The translations under genes and the position numbers were made by a program. A stretch of 64,000 nucleotides of DNA from Favolaschia claudopus (Eukaryota; Basidiomycota; Agaricomycetes; Agaricales; Mycenaceae). Shown piece by piece: positions 1-28,398 of the stretch (its first letter is position 1; every line of letters begins with the position of its first letter). The DNA is taken from NCBI GenBank assembly GCA_037176885.1, contig JAWWNJ010000008.1, forward strand, positions 248,001 to 312,000. Direction: 5' to 3'. The notes under the pieces were generated by a model. That model ran no database searches. It was given only the letters and a program-made list of their open reading frames with translations, and was not told the DNA's origin.

Positions 1-2
1 AG

Positions 3-1160
3 CGGGATCCTTTGGACCTAAATAAGCGGTACTATGCCCGCTTCAGCTCCATACCTTTGAATGAACGGGAGTCGAGGTATTCTCAGCCCAAGCGGGAATT
101 GTTTGGCTTGAAGAGGGCGCTAGACCACATGCAATACTGGCTGTTGGGCTGCCGCAAGCTGGTCGTCGAGACCGACGCTCAGTACCTCAAAGGCATGTTG
201 GATCACCCGGGAATGGGACCCAACACTACGATCAACCGCTGGATCGAGGAGATCTTAATGTTTCATTTCACTCTGAAGCATGTACCGGGCAAGACTTTCG
301 GGCCAGATGGACTCTCCCGCCGGCGTATTCAGCCGGGGGATCCAGAGTATGATCACCCAGAAGACGAGTTCGATAATAACGAGCCGCCGGGTCTTCATCC
401 TGAAAGTAGTGCTTGGCCGCCTCTCAAGAATTTCGAGGATTTCAAGCACGATATTGACACCCGAGGTGGATATATGGTAGCTGAATTGGCGGGAGATGAG
501 GCTCAGTCAGCCTCTGACTTCGAAAACGACGCTGAACAGGCGTGGGCTTACACCCGCCTTAGTAAAGAATACATTTTCGAGGTCTTCTCTCAGTCAAAGG
601 GGGACGACAAGCCAGCAGGCGAGCCGCTGATCCCTGACCTCGAATTGAAGTACGACCCGACGAAGCGGGAACCGTATTCTGAAGACCAACGATCGGTAGC
701 GGCGAAGCTAGCGGACGAGCGGCTGCTCCTCATGAAGGAATGGCGGCGGAACACCCTGGCTCGCCCGGATGGCATGAACGACAAAGAGTATAAAGCCTTC
801 CTGCGATTCGCCACCGGCTTCTTCGAGGATGCAGATGGAAAACTCTATCATAAATCCACGACGGGGAGCGCACATCAGTTGGTGGTGGACAAAGAACACC
901 GAATGTATATGATGCGAGCGGCTCATGATAGCCTAGCTCATCGCGGCGTCTTTGCTACCAAATCCTTGATAGAAATGCGCTTCTGGTGGCCTGAGATGGA
1001 GCGGGATGTCACTTGGTACATTAAGACTTGCGAATTGTGTCAATTGAGGCAAAGGACTTTATTGAAGATCCCGCCCGTTGTCACCTCATACCCCTTCGCT
1101 CTTCCAGGTGGTACACGTCGACGTGATGGTCGTTGGTACTCCTTCCAACGGCTTCAATAA
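3..1160 (+). CDS. Ty3/gypsy pol fragment: RNase H and integrase zinc-binding (H2C2) domain, 5'-partial
   Basis: This is the C-terminal part of a Ty3/gypsy polyprotein, open at the window edge. RNase H sequence comes first (residues around 'LFGLKRALDHMQYWL', then 'VETDAQYLKGML' and the 'HVPGKTFGPDGLSRR' tail typical of Ty3 RNase H). A linker of roughly 170 residues follows, then the integrase HHCC zinc finger (H...H in 'HRMYMMRAAHDSLAHRG', C-x2-C in 'CELC'). The meaningful homology ends at about 1080-1090, where the integrase core continues in the next frame; the last codons to 1160 are probably not translated in this frame in an active element. The product would degrade RNA in RNA:DNA hybrids and begin the integrase domain. 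It is truncated only by the window edge on the left. Confidence 0.85.
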   Translation, partial: RDPLDLNKRYYARFSSIPLNERESRYSQPKRELFGLKRALDHMQYWLLGCRKLVVETDAQYLKGMLDHPGMGPNTTINRWIEEILMFHFTLKHVPGKTFGPDGLSRRRIQPGDPEYDHPEDEFDNNEPPGLHPESSAWPPLKNFEDFKHDIDTRGGYMVAELAGDEAQSASDFENDAEQAWAYTRLSKEYIFEVFSQSKGDDKPAGEPLIPDLELKYDPTKREPYSEDQRSVAAKLADERLLLMKEWRRNTLARPDGMNDKEYKAFLRFATGFFEDADGKLYHKSTTGSAHQLVVDKEHRMYMMRAAHDSLAHRGVFATKSLIEMRFWWPEMERDVTWYIKTCELCQLRQRTLLKIPPVVTSYPFALPGGTRRRDGRWYSFQRLQ

Positions 1161-2244
1161 AATTGTCGACGCCCGCTGCTCTCTCAGCAGCTACATAGAA
1201 GCGCGGCCGATAAAGAACGAGAATGCCAGAACGTTGGCCTTGTTCTTACTGGAAGATGTGATTTGTAGGTGGGGTTGCCCGGAGGAACTGGTGACAGATA
1301 ATGCGCCGGCCTTCCTAGCGGCCGTAGCCTACCTTGAGTCTAAATACGGCATAAGGAATATTAGAGTTTCGCCGTATAATTCTCAAGCCAACGGGAAAGT
1401 CGAAAATGGGCACTTCTCGATGAGGCAATCCTTATGGAAAGCTACTGGCGGGAATCCCAGCAAGTGGTACTGGTTCTTCCCGCAGATGTTGTGGGCTGAC
1501 CGGGTCACTATTCGACGAGGAACGGGCTGTTCACCCTACTTTATGGTAACGGGCGCACATCCAATCCTCCCGCTGGATATAGAAGAAGCGACTTGGCTAG
1601 TGCATCTGCCCGGCAGGACTCTAACGACCGCTGAGTTAATCGGCTATCGAGCCCAGGCTCTGGCTAAGCACGCCACTCACGTCGAACAGATGAGGGAGCG
1701 GGTCACCGACGAGAAACGAGCGAATCTGCGCCGGTATGAGATAGCACATAAACATACTATCGAAGATTACCATTTCGAGCCGGGAGACTTGGTGCTCATC
1801 AGGAATACGACCGTCGAGAAGTCGCTGAATACGAAGATGGCCGCCAGATACCTGGGACCAGTAATTATCATCCGGCGTACGAAAGGTGGAAGTTATATCG
1901 TAGCGGAGATGGACGGCTCTGTCTTTCAATCGAAGATTGCTCAGTTCAGAGTGGTCCCCTTCGAGCAGCGGCGCTCTATCAAGCTGCCCGCTGACATTCA
2001 CGACTTAATCGACCTCTCGGCAGAGACGCTAGAAAAGATGGTCCAGGAGGAAGACGGTTATTCTGGAGATGACTTCCAATTCGGGAATGTGAGGTTAACC
2101 CCCAGCGGGACGGCTGACGAAGAGCCGGCTCTGCAGGAGGCCTTGCCCGAGGAAGAAGAAGAGGAAGAGGAACCTGACACGGATGAGCCGCTGCCTTTCA
2201 AACGGAAGACTCGTTCTGCCACGAAAGCCGCTGCGCGGAAATGA
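1078..2244 (+). CDS. Ty3/gypsy integrase catalytic core and GPY/F-like C-terminal domain, shifted +1 relative to upstream pol
   Basis: This is the DDE integrase core of the same retroelement. The three catalytic acids are visible in 'HVDVM', 'VTDNAP' and 'GKVENGH', with family-typical spacing. A GPY/F-type module follows ('ARYLGPVIIIRRTKGG'), then a long acidic tail with an eight-glutamate run (about 2153-2176) and a basic end 'FKRKTRSATKAAARK'. No chromodomain is visible. The frame lies one base after that of the RNase H/zinc-finger part, so pol is split near 1080-1090. Either an indel has inactivated the copy or the element uses a frameshift. The annotated start is only the first open codon, not a real start. 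Confidence 0.85.
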   Translation: MSPHTPSLFQVVHVDVMVVGTPSNGFNKIVDARCSLSSYIEARPIKNENARTLALFLLEDVICRWGCPEELVTDNAPAFLAAVAYLESKYGIRNIRVSPYNSQANGKVENGHFSMRQSLWKATGGNPSKWYWFFPQMLWADRVTIRRGTGCSPYFMVTGAHPILPLDIEEATWLVHLPGRTLTTAELIGYRAQALAKHATHVEQMRERVTDEKRANLRRYEIAHKHTIEDYHFEPGDLVLIRNTTVEKSLNTKMAARYLGPVIIIRRTKGGSYIVAEMDGSVFQSKIAQFRVVPFEQRRSIKLPADIHDLIDLSAETLEKMVQEEDGYSGDDFQFGNVRLTPSGTADEEPALQEALPEEEEEEEEPDTDEPLPFKRKTRSATKAAARK

Positions 2245-2466
2245 ATTACTGCTACGATATCTACGTTACATTTTGAAACGGGATTCGAAGTCCTTGAGTA
2301 ATTGTATTGTCTGCATCTCCCGCCAGTGCGCTGCGAACAGGTTGCGCACCCGGGGAGTGTGTGGCGGCCAGCAGAAGGATGAGCCGTGAGGTGTCCGAAA
2401 CGATTGAGCCAGTACCGAGGATTCTGAAGAAAGGGGGACCCGCTGGGGGAGCTCTTTAGGAACGAG

Positions 2467-3708
2467 TCAGGGAACATGAGCATCGACGCCGGCAGAGGAG
2501 GACTCGGGGAAGTCGCGAAGGCGAGCCGAGATCTTCTCTCCTTCGTCGAGGAGCTGCTCGCGCCGGGCCAGAGAGCTACGAAGGTTCTCGTGGATGACCG
2601 CCAGCTCGACCATGATGAAATACATCCGCTTGCGCAAGGCAAGGTGGTTGCTCATGAACTCGGTACCCATCTCGACGACGCTAGCGGCCTCATCGACAAC
2701 AGCACCTGAAGCGGGTGCCGAAGCGTAAAACTCAGCCGTTGCTGTAATAACATTCAGCGGGAAACCACTGACAATGGACGGGAAACTCACCGTTGGTGAG
2801 GAAGGAGTCCTCGTGGAACGGGACGTTGTCGATGCGAGCGCGCTTGTTGCCTTTGCCCTTCTTAGCGGGGGCCGGGCTATGCTGAAAGATTGAAATGAAC
2901 GACAGAAGCTAAAGCAGAAATAACGTGCGACTTACAGCGCGCGCACCCTTCTTGCCCGCCATGGCTGATTTAGCCTTGGGACCGGTAGGGGGAGCCTTGG
3001 GAGCGGGGAGATGCTCATCGTCAACGAGCATCTGGGTAAACAAACACCCAACGGCGATGATAGAAGTGTCAATCGTCAGCTCTACACAGGCCAGCTGTTA
3101 AACTGAAAGAACGAACCTCGTCAGCACCGATGGTGGTGAGAGCGGGCGATGGAGCACGAACGGTGCCTTCGTCCTCGTCCTCAGACTCAGGTTCACCCTG
3201 GGACCGCCCGCGAGTACTCTTCTAGCGGGGGATGGTTGTGAGTCAATGGTGAGCACGACAATAAAAGTCAGTGAAACCGACCCGGGTCCCCTTGGAAGAA
3301 GAAACGGTGGAGACGGGCGGGATCGCCTTCTTGGAACGGTCTTCGTGAATGGCCTTGGTGATCCGCCGCAGGGCATCGTACCCAGCGGGGAAGGTCACGT
3401 CCCGTTTACCATCCGGGTCGTACAAGGAGTGGTAATATTCACGCGAGGTGAAGATTGCCTCACGAAGAACCGCGCTCTTGTCTTCCAAAATGAAAGGCAT
3501 GAGCGGGGGAAGGCGCGCCTACGAACGAAAGAATAATGTTAACAAAACGAGACTGGTCAATGTAGCCGGCGGCTCTTACGAGAATCTCGGCGACGTCCTT
3601 GAGCTGGTTTTTACGAGACTCGGGCGGCGAATACTTGACGAGGTTGGCGGCAACGTCCATAGCCTTGAGGAAATCGGCTTTGGCGGTGTTGTAATCGTTT
3701 TGAGACAT
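2467..3708 (-). CDS. Antisense cassette gene A: 310-residue acidic/basic coiled protein of unknown function
   Basis: I did not recognise a named family. Six exons join in phase: 3708-3580, 3518-3282, 3221-3117, 3031-2936, 2881-2791 and 2741-2467, all GT-AG, ending in TGA. The N-terminal part is helical ('NTAKADFLKAMDVAANLV'). The middle carries an acidic stretch ('EPESEDEDEG') and a lysine/arginine-rich nuclear-signal-like stretch ('KKGKGNKRARIDN'). The C-terminal ~70 residues look like a coiled coil ('LALRKRMYFIMVELAVIHENL', then 'RREQLLDEGEKISARL'). It is the last gene of the antisense cassette and lies tail-to-tail with the integrase 222 bases away. It has no zinc cluster, unlike its four neighbours. 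A nuclear structural or partner role is only inference. The reading frame is uninterrupted, although the adjacent pol is frame-shifted. Confidence 0.6.
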
Positions 3709-4128
3709 TTTGGAGGAAGCAGAGTAAAGACAGTAGACGAGGCTGGGGGTATACCCGTCCGCCCGCTGCTTCTTATACTCGAGCGGCCGTAATTAACGCC
3801 GTAAGGATAATTTGGACGAAATCTGGTCAACGGCCGAACTTGGATTACCATTTATGGTAGATGCACCCGCCGGTGGCGCAGAAATTTATTTCAAACGCAC
3901 CCTGATCGTTCCGTGGCACGAAAATTTGCTGCCGGGGAACCTGAATTTCCTCTGATCGATCAACTGGGGACAGTTGAGATTTCTGAAAGGGGGAGAGGTG
4001 GGTCACCTAGCACGTCATTTGAGGGCAGCGGGCACATCTTTACCAAGAAATAAATGTTTCCAAGGCCTCACATGGGGCGGGAGCGTGTGTTATCGGAACG
4101 AACTATCCGAAAGTACATGTGCCTGTAT
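3709..4128. other. Intergenic stretch of the antisense cassette with purine-rich tract
   Basis: No coding region is visible. The stretch holds a 'TGAAAGGGGGAGAG' purine tract near 3981-3994 that resembles a retroelement polypurine tract, and AGCGGG-type words at 3762 and 4027. It should contain the promoter of cassette gene A and the 3' end of gene B. Confidence 0.5.
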
Positions 4129-4757
4129 CTACACTGCCCGCATCCTAGCCGGAAGATCCAGGAAAAGATTATTGGCGAGAACGTCTAACCGCTCGCGGAT
4201 AACAGCAACATACGCAGCCGGGAGATTAGCCGTTTTGGCCTCCTGAAGAAGATGGAAAACCAAGCGGGCCTCGAAGTAAAAAGACAGCCGTTGAGCTGCC
4301 TCTGCGACGTTCCGCCCGACGATTACAGAATGGTATTGCTGCCAGAATGGGAACTGCGCCAGGGTCCCCTCATGAAGGACGTCCCAAGCAGCTAGCTGTT
4401 CCTTCGTAGCCGCTAGAAGCGAGCGGGGAATCAGTTGTGGCGCAACAGATAAGAAAGAAGTCGTCACTTACGATCGGGACCCTCTTTGAAACGGTGCCGG
4501 CGGGCAGCAATTTCATCGGCCAGCTCAGCGGTCTGGGTGTACGAGCAGTTGTGCTTCAGCAAGTAACAGCGGGTGCACGGCGCTCCCCACTCAGTAAACT
4601 CGCAATGAGAACGGGCGTTGAGGCACGCAGAGCATACCCGGCCAGGCTGCCGAATGATGAGGAATTACCCGAGGCAAAATGTTCAGGAACGTACATAGTA
4701 CTCCCTGAGCGGGCCGACGGGGTCATTCGGGAAGAGTGGATGTTCCAGCAAAGACAT
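4129..4757 (-). CDS. Antisense cassette gene B: compact Zn(II)2Cys6 protein (173 aa)
   Basis: Three exons join in phase: 4757-4695 (21 codons), 4646-4472 and 4412-4129. Exon 2 opens with proline and carries a textbook binuclear zinc cluster of the Gal4 class, C-x2-C-x6-C-x8-C-x2-C-x6-C ('CSACLNARSHC' then 'CTRCYLLKHNC'), with an 'EFTEWG' linker between the halves. Known Zn2Cys6 domains bind DNA, usually CGG/CCG-type half sites. The remaining ~95 residues are helical, but I see no fungal-specific transcription factor middle-homology region, and the protein is far shorter than typical Zn2Cys6 regulators (500-900 aa). The start was chosen because it gives the same exon layout as genes C and D; an AT-rich TATA-like 'ATATTTAA' lies about 50 bases upstream. 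A regulator of the element itself is inference. Confidence 0.7.
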
Positions 4758-5040
4758 GAGTAGACGACTGAAGCAAATGGGACCTTCCCGCCAGCTTAAA
4801 TATCTCTCTGAGACCTGGCGGGAGACCCAAAAACAGAGAGATCGACAGCGGGACTCATTGCACCCGATGCTCCCGGAAGATCCGCAATACATGTGGAATA
4901 TCCAACGAGGTGCTGAGCTCCCGCTGGGCAAAAACACGAGGAAGCTTTGGTTTCTAAGAAGCCTTCCTAATCGGGCAGCTTGAAACAGAGTTTTAAAGAT
5001 GCAAGTTCGTTTGACAGTGGGAATATATTTCCTACTACGC

Positions 5041-5712
5041 TTACGGCCCGATGAACATGACGGGCGGGAGCCTTGCGCCGGACTGGAGGGCTACAGCGTC
5101 TAACCTATCCCGGAGGAGATCTACAATTTCCTTTCGTACGCCCGCCCCCTTCGCGTCAAACCACAGTCCGTACAAGAAGCGTAGCTGGCCAAACCCAAGG
5201 GTGCCGAGCATGGACCTGGCGGCGAGGATGGTGCAAGTACGCACGTCAATGTACCTCTTCTCGTCGAGTCGGGCACCGGCAGCCCGGGCGTACCAGTCAA
5301 ACTGAGCGATCCGTCCGGCGGAGGGAGCTAAAATTCACTAAGGCCCCCGCTGGGAGGTATAAAGATAGAAAGCAGACTTACCTGGCCGAGAGGCTAGGAG
5401 AGTGTCGCGACGACGACTGTTCTCGGCCTGCCAGACGGACTTCTTAGTGTAGCAGCACAAGGCGGCGCGGCCTATGAACATGCAGCTGAGGCAGGCTTCA
5501 CCCCACTGAATCCAGATGCAATGGCGGTAGTTCTTGAGGCAGCACTGGCATTCGTACTCCGGCTAAGAAGAGGCACCCGTCAGCGGGAGAGCACTGAGAA
5601 AGAACGAAAGACCCACAAACTGAGCTTGAAGTACGAGCTGGTACTCTGAGGGACCGGTGAGGCTCCTAAAGCGTTCTGAGTAAAAAGTCGCTGCCAAAGA
5701 AAAGGCGGGCAT
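5041..5712 (-). CDS. Antisense cassette gene C: compact Zn(II)2Cys6 protein (187 aa)
   Basis: Exons 5712-5617, 5562-5382 and 5327-5041 join in phase and end in TAA. Exon 1 (32 codons) is followed by exon 2, starting with proline and carrying the cluster C-x2-C-x6-C-x8-C-x2-C-x8-C ('CQCCLKNYRHC', linker 'IWIQWG', then 'CLSC' and 'LCC'). The intron order, the position of the cluster and the W-G linker match genes B and D, so these are paralogues. A C-terminal helical part contains 'RKEIVDLLRDRLDAVAL'. A TATAA on the minus strand lies about 35 bases before the ATG. Both introns contain the AGCGGG/CCCGCT word. The first intron uses a GTGGGT donor, the only in-phase choice. DNA binding is inferred from the cluster. 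Confidence 0.65.
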
Positions 5713-5884
5713 CGCTCGAAGGACTCGCTGGGCACCGGCCGCTATAAGTAAATCCTATAGCCGACGGGTGAGTACCACCGGCTACCGGACCAAAAGCTCA
5801 GAAGGAATCAGACATCACGATAACGGCTTGCGACCGGGCAAAGAGATTTATTTGACCCTAACGGGGAAAAGCTACTAGCCTGGG

Positions 5885-6627
5885 TTACCGCTCGAAGGTC
5901 TGGCGGCGCGTGCCTTGGGCCAAGGGCACGACGGTCGGAACATTAGAGTCCCGTCGCCTGATATCATGGAGCAGGATAGCTGCGTCGACGTCGCACTGGG
6001 CATGGATCGAGCGATCCTGGGTACGCCACTCGCGTAAAACTCGAGATAGGATGTTGTAGAAATACAGCCGCCGGCTGGAGTGAGCGGCGTGGTTTAGGTC
6101 GTGAGCAATGTCCCAGTCACGAAGGTCACCAGCAAATTCCTCCCGCCGACGCAAGAAGTCAGCGGGCTCACCGTCCACCGAGCCTATAAACATATCGGGG
6201 CTTAAGCCGCCGAGGCGCAAGTGGTACCAGAGTTCGAGGAATGCAAGGTCGTACAAAGTGCCGCCTGAATGGAATAAGAAAGATGAGAATTCGAAGAGCG
6301 GCAGGACTTACCGCTGCGATAGATGAAAAGTGTCGGAAAGGTTGAAGACGGATAGGTATACTTGAACCAATCCACCCCGGCGAACAAGCATTTGGGGACC
6401 TTCGCCTCCCTGCACCGAGTGCACTTTGAGCCCCAGTGAAGAAATTCACAGTCTTCGCCGGCGTCACTACAAGGCGTGCAGACGAGATTTGGCTAGCGGC
6501 TGGTTGGACTTGACGCAGAAATGTGTTGAGGACAGCCTACCACAGTATAGATCTTGCGCACAAAGTCTTGACTGACCACCGGGAAGAAATGGTAGTCGAT
6601 TAAGACTTCACCTACGGGCTGGGGCAT
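5885..6627 (-). CDS. Antisense cassette gene D: compact Zn(II)2Cys6 protein (215 aa)
   Basis: Exons 6627-6541 (29 codons), 6492-6312 and 6264-5885 join in phase and end in TAA. Exon 2 again starts with proline and holds C-x2-C-x6-C-x8-C-x2-C-x7-C ('CTPCSDAGEDC', linker 'EFLHWG', 'CTRC', final Cys in 'VPKC'). The C-terminal ~125 residues are rich in helix-forming and charged residues ('RRREEFAGDLRDWDIAHDL'). The three-exon layout is shared with genes B and C. The protein lacks the long effector part of classical Zn2Cys6 activators, so it may act as a DNA-binding adaptor or repressor; this is inference. Confidence 0.7.
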
Positions 6628-7418
6628 GATAATGAAGGAAAGAGATGATTTGATTGGCCATCTACCCCTATCGACTACAAGTACGGTAGCGGGCAGCTCG
6701 GGCCGCCGGGCCAGTCCTACTCTACGTTATCACTCTTACGAGGCCAGCGGGAGAAATAAGGAACGAGCCACCCGGTGGAGCCCGAGGACAGCCGCTGTCA
6801 GCTGGATGAGATGCCGCGGGCAATCCCCGCCATCTGATGACCCCGGTGATAAGCACCGTTGCCGCTCGGCATGTTGAAAAAACTCAGAAGTTCAATGTCC
6901 AGCTCGCTCTTTAAGACGTACTCGGCCGACGGGCGCAGCACTTAGCCAGATTCTCTCGCTTCAGACTCTTACAAATCACATAGAGGCTCTAGCCGGGGAC
7001 TCTGACTTTGGAACTCAGACAGAACTTAGAAGTTGGATCACACATGAAAAGAGAGCATCGTAAAAGCTTTTATTTTTAGTTTCATCGGCTCTTTGGCCGG
7101 TACACGATGCTCTACTACTACTATGGGGCATTTGATTTTTATTGGGGGTCATGGCGGGTGGAATTCCACCAGGCCATGACAAGTTCGCATCTAGCGGGAT
7201 TATGGGACCCGTACCCGTAGCTTTTGATGATATTGGGGGCCGCTCGGCCCCCGCGATTGTGAATACAGAAAAATTTCTAGAAAGAAGTCAGCAAGAAGTC
7301 GAAGACAGCGGGAGGTCGGGCGAATTGCTTACTTGCCGCCCGCCCACCCACGAGGAAAGGCTGTAAGATGGTCAGCGGGAAGATAAAGACTCAAGAAAGG
7401 GGGAGTGTGCTTACCCGC
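6628..7418. other. Non-coding stretch with several perfect hairpins
   Basis: No convincing coding region. Visible structure: arms AGAGCATCG/CGATGCTCT at 7052-7060 and 7105-7113; a long palindromic hairpin at 7148-7180 (8-bp outer arms around a perfect 14-bp GGTGGAATTCCACC palindrome); and an 8-bp GC-rich hairpin with a two-base loop at 7235-7252. AGCGGG words occur at 6688, 6746, 7193, 7307 and 7374, and a purine tract AAGAAAGGGGGAG near 7393. Confidence 0.6.
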
Positions 7419-10400
7419 TCAGCTCTCGACCGCGTCGTCGCCCGAAGGAGCAGGATGATCGGGAAGATGGACATCCACATCTTCCTCGCCCACTGCATCG
7501 TCTTCTGGCCCAAGGTCCTCCTCGCCGCTGGCTGCGAAATCGGCAGTCCCGGGGATTTGGACTTCCTCGAGATCGCTGTCGTCTTCCTCGTCGGCTTCAC
7601 CCTGGACGCTGCCGCGTACCTCGGCCTCGCTGGACTCCTCGCCGCTGGACTCGTCCTGTGCAAACGACTCAGCTAAGAAGTCGTCGAAAGCGGGTGCACC
7701 CACCTCGCCGGACTCTCCTTCCTCTTCGTCGCTAGACGAAGGGATGGGCGGATCGACTGCCCGCTGTTTGCCCTTCGGGCGCTTTTCAGGAGTCGGCGGG
7801 CGGGAGATGTCCATGGCTAGCGGGGAAGATTGACTTTAGCAATGAATACAGAAAGAAGAAATAAAAATTTTGGACGTACGGTCGTCCGGGGCCTCGCCCA
7901 TGTCTTCCTCTTGGGAAGTGGGGTCGGGCTTGAACTCGTCGTCGGCGTCGTCGTGAACCACGGAAGATGATTTCACCTTCCCGCTGGACTTGCCTTTGCG
8001 CTTCGGCTCTGGTGGCGGCGGGTCGGGGATCTCGAAGAACGTGCCCTTGCGGTACAACATCTTGAAGAAGCCGGGAACGCTCTTGTGCTCCCAGCTGTAA
8101 GGCAAGGTGTTGCCGTCCTCGTCGTTCGGGTCGAGATTGACCGGGCCTTTGCCGTCTGTGAAAAGGCGTTGACGGACCTTCGAGCCGTCGGGGATTTCTT
8201 CAGCGGCGTCCTCTCCCTTCAAGTCGTGGAAGAGGTCCACGCAGTCCTCCGGCTAGGGAATAAGGAGGGTCAGCGGCCCAGAAAGAAAATAAAGTAAAGG
8301 AAGAAAACTCACCTGCACTTCGACCCACTGTGTCGGCATCGAGAGCTCAGGCTCGGCCGGGATGAGGTAGAAGGCGAGCGGGACGTTCTGGTCCTGGCGG
8401 TCCTTGGCTTCGTAGAAGGCGTAGGCGTCCGTGAAGCCGGGGATGGGGACTTCGTCGATGACCTCAGAAGGGTAGTATTGCCAGCAGCGGTTCGACGTGA
8501 TCGTCGAGGCGGCGGTCAGCCCCTGGGTCATGGCGATGCGCAAGACCTGGTCCATATTCTGCTCCTGCTCCTCGGGGGTCTCGCCGGCGAAGCGTTTGAT
8601 GAAATCCTCCCGCTGGATCTCCCGGCGGGTGACCAAGACCGAGTGAAGCATCTTGAAGGATTTTTGGTTCAAATTCCAGCGTGCCTTTTCGAAGGCTCCT
8701 TGGATAGCGAAGCAGGTGGCGGCGGCGGCGTTGACATCGGCGTTCAAGTCGAACCACTCTGTTGAAACGGTCAGCGGGCCTAAACAGGAAAGTAGTGGTT
8801 GGCTTACCGGGCCGGGTCATCGAGGCCCACTGCTTCAGCCCGGAGCCCATGGAGCTGAGCTTTTCGCCGTCGAGGAGGAAAGTGCAGTCCTTGGTGGACT
8901 TGCGGCTGGCGCAGGCCGTGCACTCGCCAGGGACGCCGGTAGACTCGCACTTGCTACCGCAGGCAATACACCGCAAGCAGCGGGGGCCGTTCTAGACAGA
9001 AAAAGTTGAAAAAGATAAGAAAAAGAGAAAGAAACCGCCTTACATTGGCGACGTTCAGCTCGAGGTTGCCGATGAGGCTTGGGGCGGCCAAAGCGAACTG
9101 CTCCCTCTCGGCGTCGTACGGGAGGTCCTGGCGGCGGGCGGCTTGAGGATAGTTGGTGAACAGCTTGTTCACGACATCCTTGTTCGGCACCTTGAACTCG
9201 CCCTCGGGGCGGGGCTTGTTCTTCTTCTTGGTCGGCTCCATTGACCTGATGGGCTGCTCGGGGAGCTGGAGCGAAAATGTTAGTGGATGAATCCCCCGCT
9301 GATAACAACTCACCGGCTTGGCTGGCTTGATACCAACGCCCTCCAAGGCAGCGATTTGGGCGGCGCGGGTGCCCAACCCTTTGAGGGAAGGCACCGTGTC
9401 GACGGTGGCGGGCTTGGTCTTCTTGCTCTTTCGAGCAGCGGGCGGCTTGGTCTCTATCACTAAGAAAGACTTCAGCATAAGAATTTCTAAAGCGGGAGGC
9501 GGCTTCGACTCACGAATTTCGAAGTCGGGGACGGGAACGCGCTCGTCGCCGGAGCTTTGGACACTGATGACGGACTACGAAAAGTTTATTGTTAACTCTA
9601 TGTCGGCCTTACATTGGGGGCAACAGCGGGCCACAACTACCTGACTACGAGACGGGGCCTTGGCCGCTTTGCTCTTGGCCGCTTTATCCTCCTTCACCTT
9701 CTTGGAGGGAGACGACTCGGCGCCGCCCGAGGCCTTGCGCTTGGTGCCGCTGCCGCTGGCGGCTGGGGTATCGGCGGGGACCTTGATGGTCTTGGTGACT
9801 ACCTTGACCCGCTCGGGCTTTGGCTTGTCGGTGGTGGAGGCGGTGGTCTGAGTAAGATCGATCAGCCGGAAGGATGAACTTGGAAAAAGAGAGGCTTACC
9901 GTCTTTTTGAAATCCGGGAGCTTCTTGGGGCGGGGCGTCTCCTCTCCCTATAAGAAAGAATCAGAAAGGAAGAGTCGGCGGCAATGGTCACTGACCTTAG
10001 CGGAGGCCTTTCCGCTGACTTTTCCCGACTCAGCGGCCGCGGTGGCGGCTTTGCCGCTGACTTTTCCAGAGTCGCTGGGGGCCGTCGCGGCCTTGCCGCT
10101 AACTTTGCCAGATGAAGACGCAGACTAAAAGAGCGTCTAGTCAGAGTGGCCCGGGAGAGAAAAATGTCAACAAAACTCACCTGGGCGGCTTTGGTCTTTC
10201 GGTCGACGAAGAACTGAGTCGTCGGCGGCGGCGGTATGGGAAAAGCTTCCATGGTCTTGGACGGGACCGGGGGCAGGTATAGCTGAATAAACGTTCAGCG
10301 GGGGTGCGACCAAGAGGCCATATTGGCGGGACGCACCTTCTTTTGCTTGAGCTCCGTCTTGCGATAGCGGAGGGCCTGAACGTCGGGCAGGTGTTCGTCC

Positions 10401-10876
10401 GGGTCGTACGTCTGGATAGCCTTCTGGAGGTGAACGCTGATGGCGAGGGCCATCGGGGGCGGCTCGAGGCCTTTTTGCGCAACCCCCAAGATCGCCCGGT
10501 GCTCTCTCTAGAAAGAAATTAAAAAAACTGAAAGAATAGCTGAACGGTGGAAACTCACCAGCGGCTCTTGGATGGCACGCAGCATCTTGCCGATTCCAGC
10601 CTGGGAGTAGTTCGCGAGCTTCGACGGGACGAGCAGTTCTTGCAGAGTCTTCCATTCCTCCGGCTTGTCGCGCCATACGGCGAACCAGTCGACACTAGAA
10701 GGCTCCAGCGGCGGTGGAGGAAGCTTGGCCGGTTTCGAAGACGATGCGGCGGGCGGCTGACCAGGACCAGAAAGCGGTTTGCGACGAACCGGCGGGGGAG
10801 AAGAAGCTGCCGGGGCGCGCTGGGAAGAACGAGACTCTGGACGAGAGGCAGAGCTGCCGCTGGGTTTGGGAGGCAT
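7419..10876 (-). CDS. Antisense cassette gene E: large 13-exon Zn(II)2Cys6-cluster protein (934 aa)
   Basis: Thirteen exons join in phase without a stop: 10876-10559, 10507-10337, 10282-10181, 10124-9996, 9947-9900, 9847-9641, 9574-9514, 9459-9314, 9265-9044, 8991-8808, 8758-8313, 8252-7880 and 7816-7419. Residues 1-390 are low-complexity, rich in S, P and K, and include three SGKVSGKA-type repeats (exon 4). At about 473-504 sits a Zn2Cys6-type cluster C-x2-C-x6-C-x8-C-x2-C-x8-C ('CLRCIACGSKC', then 'CTAC'). A helical central domain follows (around 'KMLHSVLVTRREIQREDF'), then a very acidic C-terminus with a 'KRPKGKQRAVDPP' motif common in mushroom hypothetical proteins. Acidic tails of this kind can act as activation domains; that is inference. 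A TATAAA on the minus strand lies near 11053-11048. The gene is intact, unlike the pol gene of the same element. Confidence 0.7.
9996..10124 (-). repeat. Three SGKVSGKA-type protein repeats in gene E
   Basis: Exon 4 of gene E encodes three spaced copies of an 'SGKVSGKA' unit separated by alanine/threonine-rich linkers. At DNA level the units keep a common core of about 18-20 bases (GGMAAAGTYAGCGGMAAGGC type), so the exon looks like a recent internal expansion. Confidence 0.75.
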
Positions 10877-11553
10877 GCCGCGGGTGTAGCGTCAAAGAAT
10901 GAGCAAATAAGAAAGAGCTCCCCGGTGCAAAGCGCCAGAAATCCGGTTGGCGGGCGAAAGACAGAAAGATTAAATGAGGGGAAGAGAGGGCAAGGGGGTA
11001 CCCAATCGGGGAATCGGTGGGGAATCCACCCAGAAACCTCTCGACTCTTTATACCCTGAGGAGTCGGAGTTTGAATGTTTGATGGGATTCTCGAGAAAAT
11101 TTCCGAGAAAAACATTTGAATGAAGAAGCGGGGGGTCCCCGCGGCTTCTTTGATCCCAAACATTCCAAACTGCGGATGAATAGGACGGCTTTAGAGAGCG
11201 CAGGGTTAGAGTTTGATTCGAGCGCTTCTCTAATTTGATGTACTTCCGAAAAAGGCAGGAATGACGCCTCATAATGAAAGTGACGGCATCGCCGGCCGCG
11301 GCGAGGAGTTGAGTCCAGAAACTGTCAACGGAGGTAGAGTGGGATCTAAAATTAGGTCGCCACGAGTCCTTCGTTAAGGTTTTTCTCATGAAATACCAAA
11401 GGGGACGAGCGGGAACCGGGCCTCACTGGCGGCCCGCTCGTTGTCTAAAATTATTCCAAGACAGAAGTTTGTCTTGAAGTCCCCTTCCCCGGGAAGATGG
11501 ATAAGACCTCTAGCGGGCGATCACAAGTCGTCAACTCGGGAGAGTTGAAATCT
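10877..11553. promoter_or_regulatory. Upstream region of gene E
   Basis: No coding region is supported. A TATAAA on the minus strand lies near 11053-11048, about 170 bases before the gene E start. A GC-rich hairpin (GAAGC...GCTTC arms, about 11126-11150) and AGCGGG words at 11127, 11408, 11433 and 11512 are present. Long minus-strand open frames here have no recognisable content. Confidence 0.5.
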
Positions 11554-11566
11554 AGAAAGGGGGAGA
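11554..11566 (+). other. Putative retroelement polypurine tract
   Basis: The sequence AGAAAGGGGGAGA is followed directly by TGATAG. In gypsy elements a purine tract of this form primes plus-strand synthesis and abuts a 3' LTR that begins with TG. It is a family-knowledge inference; similar tracts near 3985 and 7393 show that the form alone is not decisive. Confidence 0.45.
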
Positions 11567-13378
11567 TGATAGGGCCGCTCAGCGGCTAGGCATGAAATGC
11601 CCGGAATTTATCGATTTTCGAGACCTATCAGCGGGAGAAGTGAGGCTAGGATACTAGAAGATATGTCCGTCCTCGCGGGCAGTATCTTATTGCTGTGGAT
11701 AGCCGACAAGCTGGTGGGACACCAACGGGTAGCAGCGGCTTAGCGACGTTTCCCTAAACATGGGTGCGAGACTCTGCCGCTGACTATTTCTAAACTGCCG
11801 GGCCAAGAGACTTAGTGGGAAACTACTATCTCAAGGTGCTGAAGGCGACTAAGAGGAACTACCAACCTCCCTGAGGTTAGGCGCTCACCCGCCGACCAAC
11901 ATGAAGAAGATCTAGCGGGGGACCATACTGAGTTCAACTTCGAACTCAGGACGGCCACCACTCTACCGACGAACAGGATCACCGGCAGGCTCTACCCGAG
12001 CACGCCGGCTGATTACGGACAGCCGGGACTTAACCGACTGCCAGCGGGAGCACCGCGGAGCCAGCGGCTATCCAGCCAACGGCTCTGTCAGAATGATGAG
12101 AAGGACATGGCGAGTTGCCGGGGGCATTTCCCGCTGATTGCGGACAACTCGAACGGCGAGTGGCGAGCCGCTAACGCGACTCGGCTCTCCCTATTTTCCC
12201 TGGAACTTAGACTGTTCTGAAGATAGAAGACGAGACGAACTTGACCGCTGTCGAGCCGTTGACTAACTACTCAGCGGGAAGCCTTTTCGACTTCAACTCG
12301 ACCAGCGGCAAGACCATATTATGAAGGAAGAATTTCGTGTCCCCTCCCGGGGACATGGCAACCAGCACGCCATTGCACTGCAATAAGGCGCAATACCCAC
12401 CCGCCCGCATGGACTTTCTCCGGGAGGCAGTCCTTTCACTCACGACTTGCAATCCTGAATATACCATTGGTTCCCAGCGGGCGCGGCATCAAACTTGGAC
12501 ACTCTCTCATCATGATTTTATTTGGTTGCTTCTGCTCCCGCTGCATGTATTTAATCTCCCGGTGTACTTTTTGTTACTCAGTCAATTACCTACCCGTAGA
12601 CAAGGGCAGTTTGTAGCGGACTCTAGAATTTGAATTGAACTTTGAAAGAGACTAGACTTGATATCTGAGAGAGATTCGAGTGATACGGAAAGACTTGTGG
12701 CATACCGAGCCGCCAGAACTTTGAGAGCCCCGCCAGCCTTTGAGCCCGAGCCCTCCTGAAATACGAAGCCCCGTTTCTTGCTGTTCCGCGGTATAACCAA
12801 GACCCCCGTTCGAGCTTGATTCCGCGCCGTCGACGCCCCGTGTGCCAGTCGTTCCGCGGTATAACCAAGACCCCCGTTCGAGCTCGCCGCCGCGTAGTGG
12901 TGTAACTGCCCGGGTCACTGTTAGTGTCCGCGCCATCGACATAAGAGCCCCGCTTCTCGCCAGAGCCGCGCCGGTCGTATAAGAACCCCGTCCCGCTGAG
13001 CCGCGCCTTCTGCCCGCCGGTTGTCATCCAGAAAGCTTCTTGCCGGTTGACGATCCACTACCGGGCGACGCTTTTCTATTGGCACGGAGACCCTCCCCGC
13101 TAGACTCAGAATTTCTCATTTCGAAGTCTCAGAAAGAGTGACTCTTCGCTTCTCCCGCTGCGAATCGTTGTGCCCGCTACGTTCTCGCTAGACAATCTAG
13201 TAGTTCGTCCCGCTCAAACGTAGCGACCTTGATTGATTGAAGCTTGCACAAGTATTCTGAGGGACGATACGTGCTCCCGCCACCCCGAACACACACACAC
13301 ACACACGTCGTATTGGATTAGATTTTGTGATTTTATATTTCGGTATATTTCACGCCTACACCTACACGCACCGTTTCA
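11567..13378 (+). repeat. Putative 3' long terminal repeat of the gypsy element
   Basis: The proposed LTR begins with TG immediately after the purine tract and ends with CA at 13,377-13,378, where the KDZ transposase frame resumes. It holds no convincing gene, carries many AGCGGG words up to 13,209-13,214, a degenerate tandem repeat region (12.7-13.0 kb) and an AC microsatellite (about 13,291-13,307). Its 5' partner LTR is outside the window, so length and ends are unproven. Confidence 0.35.
12783..12884. repeat. 34-bp direct repeat, 68-bp period, inside the putative LTR
   Basis: A 34-base unit starting GTTCCGCGGTATAACC and ending GTTCGAGCT occurs at 12783-12816 and again at 12851-12884. Shorter decayed relatives ('AAGCCCCG', 'AAGAGCCCCG', 'AAGAACCCCG') lie on both sides to about 13,000. 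No protein function is implied. Confidence 0.8.
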
Positions 13379-16300
13379 GCGAGTCCCCTGTTGCGCGGTG
13401 GAGATGGGTATCCTTCCTCCATGTATCTGACGCAGTGAGAAGGCGGTAAGGCGTGTCAGAGCCGTGGTCTTGATATCCAAGGTGGACGAGCGCTGTCCGC
13501 GCTCTGTTGTACATAGTGATCTCGAAAGTTTTGAGAAGTTCTGCTTTTTGCAAATTGCGCTTCGTGCGGGTTATTCCGGCTTGACCTCGGTAGTCTTGAT
13601 CTCGAGCTTTTTTCACAGCGGACAAGCCAAGCGAGGCTTGCTGTACTTGTAAGATCCCACTATTAGCCTGCCCGCATCGCAACTGAATCTCGGCTGCACG
13701 TAGCTGTTGATCCTCAGCAGTGCCACCCTCGTTGCTTGCTTCACGCTGCCCGTGTTTAATTCTGTATGATGGGAGCTGAATCGCCGTTAGCTCAGGCTCA
13801 TCAGGATCTAGAGCACTGAGCTTGAGACGTGGATACACCAGACGCTGCTGCTCTCTGAATTTCTTGAGATTAGCGTTGGTAGATTCCCGTAATTTGACGA
13901 TCGCATCCCAGGTATCTTGCAGAGGATGGGAACGGTAATTCCCCACCATCGCAACCGTAAGAAGTCTGCCAGATGTAAGTAAAAACCTAGCGTGTGCGGA
14001 ATTATGTATTGAATCTACTTACTGTTCTCGCTCAATCATTATTCCTTTGTGAATCCACTGTGCCACCGGTGTTCGTGGCTGTCTTTCATCAACTTGTGAC
14101 AGTGTCTGTTCTTCTTCGGCCACCAATGTCGACAATATGCTCTCAATCGTTACAACTAAAAAGACTCAGCCGAATCACAGCACAGAAAATTGAGGACATA
14201 CCTGTCTTTGACTCGTGCTGATATACACTGTGCCACTGCCCGTCCGGTGTCTTGGTGGCAATGCGTGAAAGCCTAGACCATTCAACAACATCATCCAGAT
14301 GCTGTCGACTTAAATCTTCTAACACAGCCATGTGTAGTTCAAACAGACGTAAAGCATCACGACGCTCGTCTGCCAGAAGCCGAGCTTCAAGAAAGTCAAT
14401 ATTGTTTTCGCCTCACAGACAGAATCATACCTGCGTGAAGCATCTTCCAGGTATTCCAAGCATCGATGACAAAATTCATGATGTCGTGCCGAGCAGCCCC
14501 AGTGCTTTGACGTGTTGACGAACCGAGCGGGTTCAAGAACGCCCAAATCACCTCTGCCGTCTCGCCGTAGAAGTGGGCCCTGCATGCGAAATAGACAGCT
14601 TGCCATATCGTTCGACACTCTTCGCCGTGCCCATTGATATGATCCGCTGGAATCTGACCTTCAATTTTAGCCAGTAAATCGTGGAGCCACGTCTCTTCCG
14701 GAAACATCTCAATTGCTCGTCGACGCAATTTTACAACGAACGAGCACCAGCTGTCGTAACTGAAAACCTCCGGAGTTGTAGACTCTTTATCATGAGGCGG
14801 AGAATTAGTTTTCAAGCTCTCGCGCAACGCAAGCGTGCCCAATGCAAACCTGTGATCAGAGAAACTTGGTCAGTATATTGCTGTCAAACATTCAATGTGA
14901 AAGAGAGCGCTTACGCTTCGCCCACAAGCATGTCGACTAGTGATCCAACAACGGCGTGATCGCATGCACAAGCTACTACCCCACTTATTGCCGTGTTTCC
15001 CCACTTCACGGAACCCTGGTGTCGGATAGAGCCTATGTGCGCTCCGCACGGTACCTCCTGAGTTACATTAGCCATATGGTTTGCCACAGCGTCAAATTTA
15101 CTTACCTTGTCCTCCTCCACGACTATAAACTTATCTTTCATTTCTTCAAACTCTTGCTGGAGAGGAAAGTACATTCTCCCGTCAGTCAAGCTTATGTCGG
15201 TCCCGTTGTCACGTTTGGTGAACTGATTAGCTTTGAAATTGCCGTCCAATGTTTTGAAGGCCGAAATAGTATGGCTGAGATGAACAGATGAGAAAAGTAT
15301 GTAAAGAAGACCTGTGTCACCCACCGTAGATAGTTCGGGACGTTTACAATGCGTGGCATATTTACACCGCGTTCCGGACAAGCAACACACTGAAGCCCTA
15401 AATAACCGATCGGCCGGTTAGGATATGGACGCTCAGTCTCCCCGTCAAGTGGAGTATCGACATCATGGGCATAACCCCGACGCATGATGATATCGAGGGT
15501 TTGGTGGAAACGTGTGATTGCCAGAAAATTGGTATAGATGTCCTGAAAACATTGAGCCGTCTCGTTTACTCACAATTGGCGAGGAATGTGCTTACCGGAA
15601 CTGCATCAGAAAACCAGGGATCAGCTAGACGCTGCAGAACTAGGATAAAGCTGTAGGCTGAAATCTTGGACTGATTGCGAAGTTCGCGATAATGTTCCAG
15701 TAGATTCAGGGTATAACCCGTCTTGGGTTGCTTTACTGTGGCGGGGAAGATGCCTGCGCATAACAATTGTTCGAACTCTGGTTTGGGGCCCTGCCCCTCG
15801 CCAGTCTTGCAACGACAAAACGATATCGCGGTGGCATGAATGCCGTTAGTGTCGACGAGGGTAAAGGATTTGGCAGCGTCTGCTGCGGGACAACGTCGAC
15901 CGTTATGTCCGAGTGCAACGGACGCGCTTCCGAGCACGCGGCAGAAGTCATGACGTTCGAAATACCGCTCGTTGGTGTTCCAGACGAGAGCCCAATGTGT
16001 TGGATTGGCTCTATGCGCATCGACCCAACACTGCGGACAAAGCACCACACCGTGTAAACAGTCAGCACATTTGACTTTGCGGGCAAGTCCCCGTCCGCAG
16101 GCACATGGAGTGAGAACGTCGGGATTGTGATGTGAAGCAAGGAGACAGTCAAGGAATACAGATTCTTGACTCTTGAGCTCTGCCATATGGGCCACGGTCT
16201 GCGAGAAGGCAATTAGTTTTATTTCTCTCAGATGCGCAATAGAAAACGGATTCACCTGTCGCATCTTTTCTCCGGTCTTCTCGTCCCCGGGCGTAGTGTT

Positions 16301-16602
16301 GTATGCAGGGAGCGGACCAGAATCCTCTTCGGCAGCGAAAAAGTCATCTTCCTCGGTCACCGGTGGGGGCGGGATTGGGGCTGAGGTGCTGGGTTTCTGT
16401 GTCGATTCCAACGGGTCGTCGAGTATGTGGCTTTCTTTTCGCGGAGAAGGGCCTGGGTATAACTTAGCATACAAATTTCGGAAGCAGATTGACTCATACC
16501 TGAGTGATAAGTTATTTCATAGCTGTCTTGAAGAGTGGCATTGAGGTGTTTTGAAGTCTTCTTCGCTTTGTTCTTCCCAACGCGCTTCAGCATGACGAGC
16601 AA
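13362..16602 (-). CDS. KDZ-type transposase with CxC2-like cysteine cluster, C-terminally truncated
   Basis: This is a DNA transposase of the Kyakuja-Dileera-Zisupton class. Exon 1 starts at 16602 or 16593, followed by an exon encoding the KDZ-associated cysteine cluster ('CACGRG', 'CADC', 'CPQCWVDAH', then 'LGHNGRRCP'). The catalytic part follows: 'LDGNFKANQF' (first acid), 'YDSWC' (second acid), 'GHGEEC' and 'GETAEVIWAFLN' (glutamate), then 'TRQSTGAARHDIMNFVIDAWN'. All three expected acids are present. Introns are short GT-AG; one lies after 'EKMRQ'. The frame reaches '...THLHRATGDS' and then runs into unrelated codons and a TAG at 13362, whereas full-length relatives as I remember them continue well beyond that point. 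The break coincides with the proposed gypsy boundary. Exon borders are approximate. Confidence 0.8.
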
Positions 16603-16810
16603 TGGTGAGTGTGGTCAGTGGCAAAGCAGAGTTGCCTTAATTGGTTGTACCTGTGTTTGTTGTCAGTATCCTGGACGCGAAGACAGATGGACCACATACC
16701 AGTAATCCTGTCGCCAGACGTGTACGTGAACAAAACTGCTTCAAGTCACGCTGATTATTTTGTGTTACTCTGTGGTATTCTACATATATACAAATGTCGG
16801 AATGTCACTA

Positions 16811-26097: not shown

Positions 26098-28398
26098 ATG
26101 CCACCGACCAAGGAGAAGAAATCCAAGGACAACTTCGACACATACATCGAAGCCGACGTTCCGCCCTCCATGCCCTTCCCCTCTCTTGCCGTTGTTATCA
26201 CTACTAAGAACGACGAGTACGCAGTACCTGTCTTGAACAACCATCAACGCGCCTACCTTCACGATGTCGCACTTCGCGACGTGGATCTCCTCACCGGAAA
26301 CAAAAAAGAGAATGCGGAAACAAATGAGAAGATCAAGACTGCTGCTTTGAAATCCAAGGCTTTTCAGCACGTACCGCAGGAAGGCGACGAGACTGAAGAG
26401 CGTGATCTTCCTGCTCTCATCTCCGCCTGGAAAGAAAACGAACAAAAGAAGAAAGCACAACGCAAAGCAAAGAAGAACGGAGTGGCCATTGATACCAGCG
26501 ATGCTTCCGCAACGGCCGGTGACGATGCGACTCCTCAGGACGAGGATTCTCGTACCAATCTGTTGCGAGGCTACAGAATTATTGGCTGGGAAAAGGTTAG
26601 TGCCTTGACTAGTTCTTCGTGCGTTCCCAACTGCCACTCACTCTTGCCAGGCGATCCAACGAGTCATCACCAACAAACGTACAGCTCAGACGAATCAACA
26701 ACGCCAACCCTCCTCCTCTTCATCTAACCCACCGGTTCTGGCAACCTCATCGACGCCGCTTGCTCCAGCACCGACACCGACACCGTCTCAGAGCCGGGCT
26801 TTAACCAAGCTCTACCGTCTGGCTGCGTACAAAGGTCGTGACAAATTTCGCGACGAATGTCACGACCGTATCTTTGCGCATTCACAGACCATTCCCGGCT
26901 CTTCGAATCCGGGTGGGAAATTCAATAAGGCGTTGGCAGAGTTGTGGGCGAAGGAAGATCAGGCGGCTTGGGAGGCGAAGGTGGAAACCGGAGAAGAAAA
27001 CGTGAATTGGGCAGAGTGAGTCAATCAATACTTTACCTTATCCTTATCGGAACCAAGACTTATATTTTATGCAGGCGCCAGGAGCTTGTAACGGAGGGTT
27101 TTGCAGACATGGTCGAGACGGTTAATAACAGCCCCCAATTTCGCAATTTCATGGCGGCGATGATCATGATCTGGGTTGATGACGACGGGAAGGTTTCCGT
27201 CGAATGGTAAGTGATGTTTATGCTTGCAAGTAATCTTTCACGAGACTTATGTATGCGGTAGGAGTGAGGGACGTCCCACAGGACTAGAAATGTCAAAGAC
27301 GTTTGACCAACAAGAGCCGGAAGTGTTGAAGCAGCTAACCAATGCATTCCACAGATGGGCCGCAAAGCCGCTCAGAGGTAATGTTTGTTTCCATGGCTCT
27401 TTGAGCGCTCGACTGACAGTTTTTTTGAAGATTACATTGCGGCTCGTCGGCCTACCGCCTCAACACCGACACAATTTTTCCCGCTGAATGCGTCAGACTT
27501 GGAGAAAGGTATCCACCTTGACGACCTGAAATCAACTGTGTTGCGGTTTCTCGGCGAGTCATACAGTAAGTGCCAGTCGATTATCAGCACCACTTGATTC
27601 ATTAAATCAATCCCAACAGAAGCAGCATTCGGTGTGGAGGACATTCCTTGGGCCTCCATTGCCACCGATCCTGCTGCATACTACGACGTCACCAAATTCT
27701 CGCACGGCTTCCCCGTTTCCGGTCCTGCGGAGTGGAAACACGGCGCTTGGTATGAAGTGGCGTTCAGCTTGGCTGAGATTGCAGGGGTTGATACCGACAG
27801 TATCTTCTTCCGCAAACCCTCTCCTTCAGTTCGTGGGAGCTCTCCATTGAAAGAAACTTCCCAGCCGCCACCATCTCCCTCACGAGAACGCACTCCGCCG
27901 CCGCCGCCGCCTCGATCGCGCCAAGCTTCCCCGCTGCAACCACCGCCTCCATCCGATGACGGCTCTCAGCAACCACCCGTTACGCCATCACGGGAAGGCT
28001 CCCCGCTGCAACCACCGCCTCCATCCAATGACGGCTCTCAGCAACCACCCGTTACGCCATCACGGGAAGGCTCCCCGCTGCAACCACCGCCTCCATCCGG
28101 TGACGGCTCTCAGCAACCACCCGTTACGCCATCACGGGAAGGCTCCCCCAAACCACCACCTCCGTCGCCGCCACCATCGCCCCCCCACCCGAAAACTAGA
28201 CGGGTTCCTGTTGTGCGTACACCAACAAGTCCCCTCAAAACGAGGGCCAGAGCAGCTAAGGCAGAGGCCAAAGCTGCCGCTGAGGGCAAAGCTGAAACTG
28301 GGCGAGGGAAGCGGCAGCGGGGTCAGAAGCGAAAGGCACCCGACCAAGCAGAAGATGAAAATCACAATCCGAAGCGCGTGCGGAAAGGGAGGAATTAA
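26098..28398 (+). CDS. Mushroom-lineage hypothetical protein with proline-rich 24-aa repeats
   Basis: The gene has seven or eight exons. Exon 1 is 26098-26595; exon 2 starts 26651 and ends 27015; the last begins about 27620 and ends at TAA 28398. It starts 'MPPTKEKKSKDNFDTYIEADVPP', has a lysine-rich segment and then a conserved-looking helical region ('LYRLAAYKGRDKFRDECHDRI', 'FADMVETVNNSPQFRNFMAAM') and 'AEWKHGAWYEVAFSLAEIAG'. A low-complexity tail follows with three 24-residue proline-rich repeats and a basic end. I have the impression of a lineage-expanded agaricomycete family of unknown function, but cannot name a domain. The basic C-terminus ('KRQRGQKRKAPDQ') suggests nuclear localisation. 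Confidence 0.6.
27931..28146 (+). repeat. Three tandem 72-bp coding repeats
   Basis: Units start at 27931, 28003 and 28075 with an exact 72-bp period (CCGCTGCAACCACCGCCTCC start). They encode a 24-residue unit beginning 'PLQPPPPS' and ending 'PVTPSREGS', differing at the 'DD', 'ND' and 'GD' positions. The third unit diverges at its end. Confidence 0.9.

Follow-up and report, generated by a model that had tools for sequence, protein, structure and literature searches.

The question raised by this locus of the basidiomycete Favolaschia claudopus is what five spliced antisense genes do between the integrase and the long terminal repeat (LTR) of a retrotransposon. The locus lies in a stretch of 64,000 nucleotides (GenBank assembly GCA_037176885.1, contig JAWWNJ010000008.1, positions 248,001 to 312,000 of the forward strand; C8:248001-312000 in our contig numbering), called the window throughout, and its relatives were sought in the 264.6 Mb (460 contigs) of the genome. 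The five minus-strand genes, G1 to G5, form a cassette at window positions 2467-10876, between pol and the 3′ LTR, and the cassette is integral to a Ty3/gypsy-type element. Substitution patterns point to purifying selection on the genes, and the element is rich in the word AGCGGG, which appears to be under selection as DNA. We tentatively propose, at somewhat below even chances, that the Zn-cluster proteins of the cassette act on AGCGG(G/C) across the element and control its own chromatin and expression, most likely opposing silencing.

Structure of the element

The element spans C8:241002-261378 (about 20.4 kb), of which window positions 1-13378 are the 3′ two-thirds. Its features are as follows, in window coordinates except where a contig is named.

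C8:241002-242813, left of the window: 5′ LTR, with TG...CA ends (pair comparison)
1..2244, plus strand: 3′ part of pol, with the RNase H region and the integrase, the catalytic part of which lies in open reading frame (ORF) 1066-2244 (Pfam rve, reading)
Start 3708, stop 2467, minus strand: G1, 6 exons, 310 aa, a basic stretch and no Cys cluster (gene model)
4129..4757, minus strand: G2, 3 exons, 173 aa, Zn2Cys6-like cluster (gene model)
5041..5712, minus strand: G3, 3 exons, 187 aa, Zn2Cys6-like cluster (gene model)
5885..6627, minus strand: G4, 3 exons, 215 aa, Zn2Cys6-like cluster (gene model)
7419..10876, minus strand: G5 type W, 13 exons, 932 aa, the variable module of the element (gene model)
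8808..8991, minus strand: G5 exon 10, which holds the Zn2Cys6-like cluster (gene model)
7351..10950, no strand: block carrying G5 that is swapped between copies with similar backbones (W versus X alignment)
11554..11566, plus strand: polypurine tract AGAAAGGGGGAGA, preceding the 3′ LTR (read from the sequence)
11567..13378, plus strand: 3′ LTR, 1812 bp, with 13 AGCGGG sites (LTR pair comparison)
1..13378, both strands: 67 AGCGGG/CCCGCT sites (count within the element part of the window)

The two LTRs are 1,812 bp long with TG...CA ends, and are 99.39% identical. Upstream of the window are a gag ORF with a CX2CX4HX4C zinc knuckle, read from the sequence, and a long pol frame read as protease–reverse transcriptase–RNase H, with the integrase last. 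The Pfam scan of gag-pol covered the integrase ORF only, which matches rve at E=1.1e-5 and 26 bits, under the cut-off of 32.6; the domain order is otherwise by reading. The window copy has its integrase frame broken between the zinc-binding and catalytic parts, in line with the frame-shift that the initial annotation had described in pol. At all 14 other loci (12 distinct copies) the two parts lie in a single frame, which in two of the 12 copies is followed soon after by a stop.

A 4-bp target-site duplication surrounds the whole LTR-to-LTR unit in two of the three copies with both ends compared; the window copy has none (L010 2998-3001 compared with window 13379-13382). The LTRs, the polypurine tract and the target-site duplications fit a Ty3/gypsy-type LTR retrotransposon, and we provisionally classify the element as such. 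The window copy combines LTRs that are 99.4% identical with the lack of a duplication, as though its ends stem from separate insertions.

Copies and linkage of the cassette

A search of the genome with window positions 2467-4500 gave 147 candidates, of which the best 40 were scored; 38 of these are full-length, at 97-100% identity. The G2 protein search (best 150 of 507 candidates scored) lists at least 123 matches to exon 3, all 90-100% identical except for two spanning an intron, at 83 and 85%. An integrase search, with the best 105 of 1,299 candidates scored, places a G2 or backbone match no more than 7 kb away from at least 92 of the 105, and at least 91 of the 123 G2 exon-3 matches likewise have an integrase match within 7 kb. 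The cassette has constant place, order and strand within the LTRs in the copies read.

These linkage counts, the LTRs and the target-site duplications of two copies agree in tying the cassette to gypsy pol and LTR, as had been proposed, and with at least 91 of 123 G2 matches near an integrase the cassette genes are not found mainly without the gypsy element. The cassette is integral to the element because an LTR pair and target-site duplications enclose it. The extra genes are of unplaced origin and insertions into elements are common, from which one might suppose that a separate transposon or host genes had been inserted in this copy. That explanation is most improbable, and we reject it on the enclosure by LTRs and, in two copies, by target-site duplications, and on the constant position, order and strand in the copies read. 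A distant relative also speaks against it: on contig C33 an old element, whose integrase is 69% alike, has an antisense G1-like gene directly after pol (39% identity over 54 aa and 27% over 62 aa).

Several G2 matches share the same offset from the contig start (14061 on C19, C66, C121 and C420; 12255 on C64 and C73), which might reflect a place for the element in subtelomeric segments that these contigs have in common.

Gene models and selection

The initial annotation had described five antisense genes between integrase and LTR without internal stops, and for the window copy this holds. The bounded gene models contain 23 introns in total; the 26 introns or junctions claimed were not reproduced. 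G2, G3 and G4 look like old tandem paralogues, since they have a common three-exon plan and only 15 invariant columns. By reading, G5 has a long basic N-terminal half, which is probably disordered, followed by the Zn2Cys6-like cluster, a C-terminal region and an acidic tail. A structure prediction for exon 11 of G5 had a predicted local distance difference test (pLDDT) score of 37 and was discarded.

The window gene models were lifted onto other loci to check for open frames. G2 is open at all 14 loci checked (12 copies; the acceptor is altered in one), G3 likewise at all 14 (the donor is GC in one) and G4 at 8 of 8; of 11 loci examined for G1, seven are open, two are cut by the locus edge and two (L025 and L030) are not open by the lifted models. 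Three further copies belong to a second backbone lineage described below: G2 and G4 are open in all three and G3 in two, the G3 of L034 being shortened and out of frame. G5, which exists in several types (W in the window, and X, Y and Z), is more varied. The W gene of L012 has one in-frame stop with all 13 exon lengths and splice sites intact, and that of L024 has length changes of 1-2 bp in six of 13 exons. The two type X copies that were read are open, for 949 and 950 aa, and follow the 13-exon plan, and the Y″ gene of L034, in the second lineage, loses its frame in exon 11.

The pooled ratios of nonsynonymous to synonymous rates, in which two copies are counted twice for some genes via two loci each, are 0.07 for G1, 0.11 for G2, 0.01 for G3 and 0.12 for G4; for exons 10 and 11 of G5 the ratio within types is 0.08-0.11. 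These values indicate strong purifying selection on G1–G4, and purifying selection on G5 within each type.

Zn2Cys6-like clusters

In the window, G2–G5 have the six-cysteine spacing CX2CX6CX8CX2CX6-8C, and G2, G3, G4 and the W, X, Y and Z types of G5 all fall within the spacing of the Zn(II)2Cys6 class, CX2CX6CX5-12CX2CX6-8C. Zn2Cys6 proteins as a class mostly bind CGG triplets, and CGG is contained within AGCGGG. As far as the evidence goes, we label these clusters "Zn2Cys6-like". A likeness of the G2 cluster to a bacteriocin, a single solved-structure match at E=0.2, was taken as chance, and G2 gave no match in viral contigs.

The AGCGGG word

The window contains 94 AGCGGG sites, against a mean of 33.7 and a maximum of 54 in shuffled sequence. 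The element has 85 sites in 18.6 kb (4.58 per kb), which is 8.6 times the density in the rest of the window (0.53 per kb); other flanks totalling 51 kb, possibly including element remnants, have a density of 0.74 per kb. The core of the motif is AGCGG followed by G or C. Sites are densest in introns (8.6 per kb) and the LTR (7.2), followed by intergenic DNA (5.8), pol (4.5) and antisense exons (3.3), and the word is dense in gag-pol also, on both strands. The element had been described as peppered with AGCGGG, and the comparisons with flanks and with synonymous-codon shuffles bear this out.

Coding DNA carries 40 AGCGGG sites, compared with a mean of 11.5 and a maximum of 19 in 300 within-gene synonymous-codon shuffles. 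Since the motif had been picked after looking, all 2,080 6-mers were ranked by synonymous-codon shuffle. CAGCGG and AGCGGG rank first and second in gag-pol-integrase (z of 9.3 and 8.6, with the next unrelated word at 4.9), and second and third in G1–G5. The shuffles and the ranking rule out an origin of the motif excess in codon usage, and CpG decay is ruled out by near-equal observed/expected CpG in element (1.04) and flank (1.09). Sites are spaced a little more evenly than chance would give (p 0.04), and tandem repeats in 13.4 kb of the element amount to two short arrays. The LTR holds an imperfect short tandem array with a 34-bp unit (window 12783-12886).

Site positions differ greatly between G5 types. 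At 56% identity between the two, the W block has 16 sites and the X block 13, of which one is common; the right-hand parts of W and Y have 26 each with three common, and X and Z 13 each with one common. Close copies retain sites slightly more often than other words, at 34 of 44 (background 66-70%) and 21 of 21 (background 81-86%), and the density in second-lineage copies is 2.5-5.6 per kb. Density is maintained while positions change between types, the outcome expected of selection for the word as DNA and not of common ancestry, and AGCGGG appears to be under such selection.

The C33 relative has AGCGGG at background (two sites in 5 kb and then none over a further 2 kb) and no recognisable G2–G5, in a single old copy interrupted by other repeats. 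As one interrupted copy, it agrees with a link between the Zn genes and the motif. A different word, TCGTAG, stood out in the C33 element, but its count stems in part from a repeated stretch and from other repeats beyond about 2.5 kb, and we do not claim it as a motif.

The word might instead be read by a host protein, or serve replication, packaging or recombination, with the cassette proteins acting in integration targeting, particle assembly or nuclear export. The density of sites in gag-pol and on both strands would suit this, as would the weak match of the Zn clusters to Pfam and the failure of the motif to track G5 type clearly (both below). A signal acting in RNA should be confined to a single strand, however, and the C33 element, old and interrupted as its one copy is, pairs the lack of recognisable G2–G5 with a background density of the motif; we regard such roles as rather unlikely.

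Types of G5 and backbone lineages

Copies with similar backbones differ sharply at G5. Identity between W and X copies is 0.84-0.98 over 6151-7350, 0.45-0.70 over 7351-10950, rises from 0.76 to 0.93 over 10951-11550, and is 0.96-0.99 after 11551 (LTR compared to 12450); the swapped block ends about 70 bp past the G5 stop and about 70 bp past the G5 start. Type Y differs over G5 plus approximately the first 650 bp of the LTR, and type Z is about 70% like X. Types were assigned by three type searches, each with the best 40 candidates; among the matches listed, the 40 backbone copies comprise 15 W, 10 X, 3 Y and 4 Z, with one further copy matching Y in the LTR part only and seven without a listed match. 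L031 (C140:592001-600000) is a rearranged piece of the element in which the LTR is accompanied by the beginning of a Y-like G5; it too is rich in CCCGCT.

A second backbone lineage, 5.2-6.5% divergent over G2–G4, carries types W′, X′ and Y′. Over exons 10 and 11 the protein of each is 91-93% like that of its counterpart W, X or Y, whereas these three match one another at 29-52%. In trees of 11 sequences each (ultrafast bootstrap; the W copy L024 was included in just one of them, and so was Z), the split between backbones is supported at 100 and G5 groups by type (W 96, X 98, Y 100). Synonymous divergence (dS) within a type across backbones is 0.34-0.56 and between W and X is 1.3, while for G2–G4 the W′, X′ and Y′ copies stand at 0.10-0.29 from the window. 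The G5 types are thus older than the backbone lineages and recombine onto them, because W, X and Y recur on two lineages and dS between types is far larger. Exon 10, with the Zn cluster, is the most conserved part of exons 10 and 11 within a type (dN/dS 0.02-0.04), with one or two amino-acid-changing differences across lineages within a type, and is very different between types.

This pattern resembles long-lived balanced types, for which neutral recombination among old families is a fair rival. On that account the G5 types have no selective meaning: they are old sister families in which gag-pol-G1–G4 was homogenised, by template switching or gene conversion, and G5 had become too diverged to recombine. 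The account concerns the types only and is compatible with any other reading. Divergence from the window climbs along the cassette as repeated recombination would give (dS for L018 and L015 of 0.016 in G2, 0.04-0.06 in G3 and 0.09-0.12 in G4), the right flank of G5 shows a gradient, and the backbone tree places L024, which carries W, together with an X copy (support 98). Set against this are the persistence of relatives of all three types on each of two lineages and the purifying selection within each type, both of which are compatible with neutrality in so large a copy population. We consider neutral types possible but doubtful.

The main rival on the direction of the effect is self-limitation or immunity, in which the cassette, above all G5, represses its own family in trans according to type, and rare types spread because resident copies do not repress them. 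It fits the G5 types better than anti-silencing does: G5 is sharply swapped in copies 0.84-0.99 alike on most of both sides (graded over 10951-11250), W, X and Y recur on both backbone lineages, W–X divergence is far above backbone divergence, and the Zn exon is nearly invariant within types and different between them. No type-specific operator was found, however; AGCGGG is common to all types, the X LTR is 0.96-0.99 like the W LTR over 11551-12450, and slow drift in a large copy population could give the same pattern. Repression of this kind is, in our view, unlikely.

Lambdoid phage immunity regions offer a parallel, being sharp swaps of one regulatory module with several coexisting types. 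In both systems one module is swapped in an otherwise homologous mobile genome and several types exist; here, in contrast, no operator-like partner was found in the swapped block. A heteroimmunity-like arrangement, in which G1–G4 would read the common AGCGG and G5 would tell its own from other types, with rare types favoured, is quite unlikely. If it is true, at least three ancient G5 types would have been kept across lineages like mating-type or self-incompatibility alleles.

Proposed action of the cassette

Our preferred reading remains control by the element of its own chromatin. The cassette would encode Zn-cluster proteins, presumably nuclear and DNA-binding, that would act on the AGCGG(G/C) sites spread along the element's own DNA and in doing so control chromatin and expression, most likely counter to silencing. 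Such a system is suggested by a word in excess across 20 kb, even in codons, together with conserved nuclear-looking proteins, and since the sites run along all 20 kb an effect on the scale of chromatin seems likelier than one on a single promoter. We prefer opposition to silencing as the direction, since the element would gain from it and VANC, discussed below, is a precedent with a similar motif layout. G1–G4 would be the conserved core. G5 would be a partner specific to each type, and recombination moves its several ancient versions among backbones that they share. The antisense layout may let introns persist through retrotransposition, because it gives the sense genomic RNA no splice sites at which they would be removed.

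A number of results weigh against this reading. The four Zn(II)2Cys6 genes of the initial annotation stand by cysteine spacing, but none reaches the Pfam cut-off: PF00172 (Zn_clus) scores 14.1 bits on whole G2 and 17.2 on a fragment, against a cut-off of 21, and G3, G4 and G5 (X and Y included) have no match to it. This weak hit is the sole Pfam match of G1–G5 at E up to 1, with no enzyme domain recognised. Basic DNA-contact residues of Zn(II)2Cys6 proteins sit between Cys 2 and Cys 3; they are partly present in G2 and G3 and absent in G4, where this stretch is acidic (SDAGED). Among eight coding pieces, G3 (no exon sites) and G4 (one) have no excess of the motif, and in single G5 genes the excess is modest, with AGCGGG at rank 14 (W), 6 (X), 14 (Y) and 57 (partial Z) of about 2,070 words. 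Motif composition barely differs among G5 types (uncorrected p 0.026 and 0.076), and type-specific motif variants were rejected on these weak differences. G5 is no obvious reader of a type-specific word, because the motif is near-constant across very different Zn clusters, and if any cassette protein reads the motif, G1–G4 are the better candidates, because the motif shows no clear dependence on the type of G5. The occurrence of the motif in coding DNA and outside tandem repeats tells against a simple VANC-like version.

Nor did the CpG mutation pattern give a sign of escape from DNA methylation in 16 element pairs and two control pairs. The CpG transition-rate ratio is 0.48-1.81 in the 16 pairs, not consistently raised, and is not clearly raised in the controls (1.47 for a KDZ transposon, 0.96 for another paralogous pair). 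A lower CpG transition rate, as escape from CpG methylation would give, was dropped as an explanation, there being no clear contrast between element and controls. CpG rates are clearly raised in neither, and therefore silencing, if any, need not be DNA methylation. The proposal of self-recognition and anti-silencing thus keeps the integral cassette, the purifying selection and the motif excess as DNA in its favour, and has the CpG pattern, the type-independent motif and the divergent clusters against it.

Comparison with known systems

Three published systems were compared, in each case with the consulted part of the source. The VANC proteins of Arabidopsis VANDAL elements, which are MULE-type DNA transposons, act on a short self-motif that is dense in introns and terminal regions (PMC5735166; PMC10398659). 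The element described here is similar in having a candidate self-motif dense in its own non-coding DNA (introns 8.6 and LTR 7.2 per kb, flank 0.53) and rare elsewhere, and in having conserved and variable protein parts. It differs in being an LTR retrotransposon with several antisense Zn2Cys6-like genes, and in a motif that is dispersed and present in coding DNA also, not in tandem repeats. The analogy with VANC drawn initially therefore holds for the layout of the motif and not for the element class or a tandem-repeat motif; a VANC-like way of working is possible, and the element is not a member of VANC/VANDAL.

Retand, a lineage of plant Ty3/gypsy elements, has conserved antisense ORFs between pol and the 3′ LTR that are suspected of DNA binding and regulation (PMC11963269), and both systems have a long pol–3′ LTR region with antisense genes. 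Retand has TRP28 (PF04195), for which G1–G5 give no match at E up to 1; the present element has five intron-bearing genes, a dispersed self-motif and type switching, the latter two not described for Retand in the consulted part of that source. Fungal DNA transposons carry TET/JBP dioxygenase genes thought to counter silencing (PMC12730594). These, too, are accessory genes of fungal mobile elements with a proposed anti-silencing role, but they encode a methylcytosine enzyme on a DNA transposon, whereas the element here is of the LTR type and no enzyme domain was recognised in its cassette.

Titles and abstract openings of the open-licence literature yielded no LTR element of a fungus whose antisense Zn-cluster genes contain introns, and none with a self-motif under selection or with exchangeable types. 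Antisense genes between pol and the 3′ LTR are already known from plants; the diverged G5 types on a near-uniform backbone are new here. Element self-recognition and the evasion or limitation of silencing are known in detail for few systems, of which VANC is one. The present family is young, with more than a hundred G2 matches listed, and combines conserved candidate regulators with a candidate target word whose excess extends into codons. The element is therefore well placed as a candidate for mobile DNA that controls how it is silenced. Natural swaps of a regulator on a near-uniform backbone make binding specificity, silencing and interactions between types testable by comparing natural copies.

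Other features of the window

The region of a KDZ transposase gene (window 13362-16620) adjoins the 3′ LTR. It has a CxC2 cysteine cluster, matches Pfam KDZ and CxC2 above the cut-off, and has few similar copies in the genome. Direct repeats with 72-nt spacing lie at window 27868-28155, each with a minus-strand AGCGGG site.

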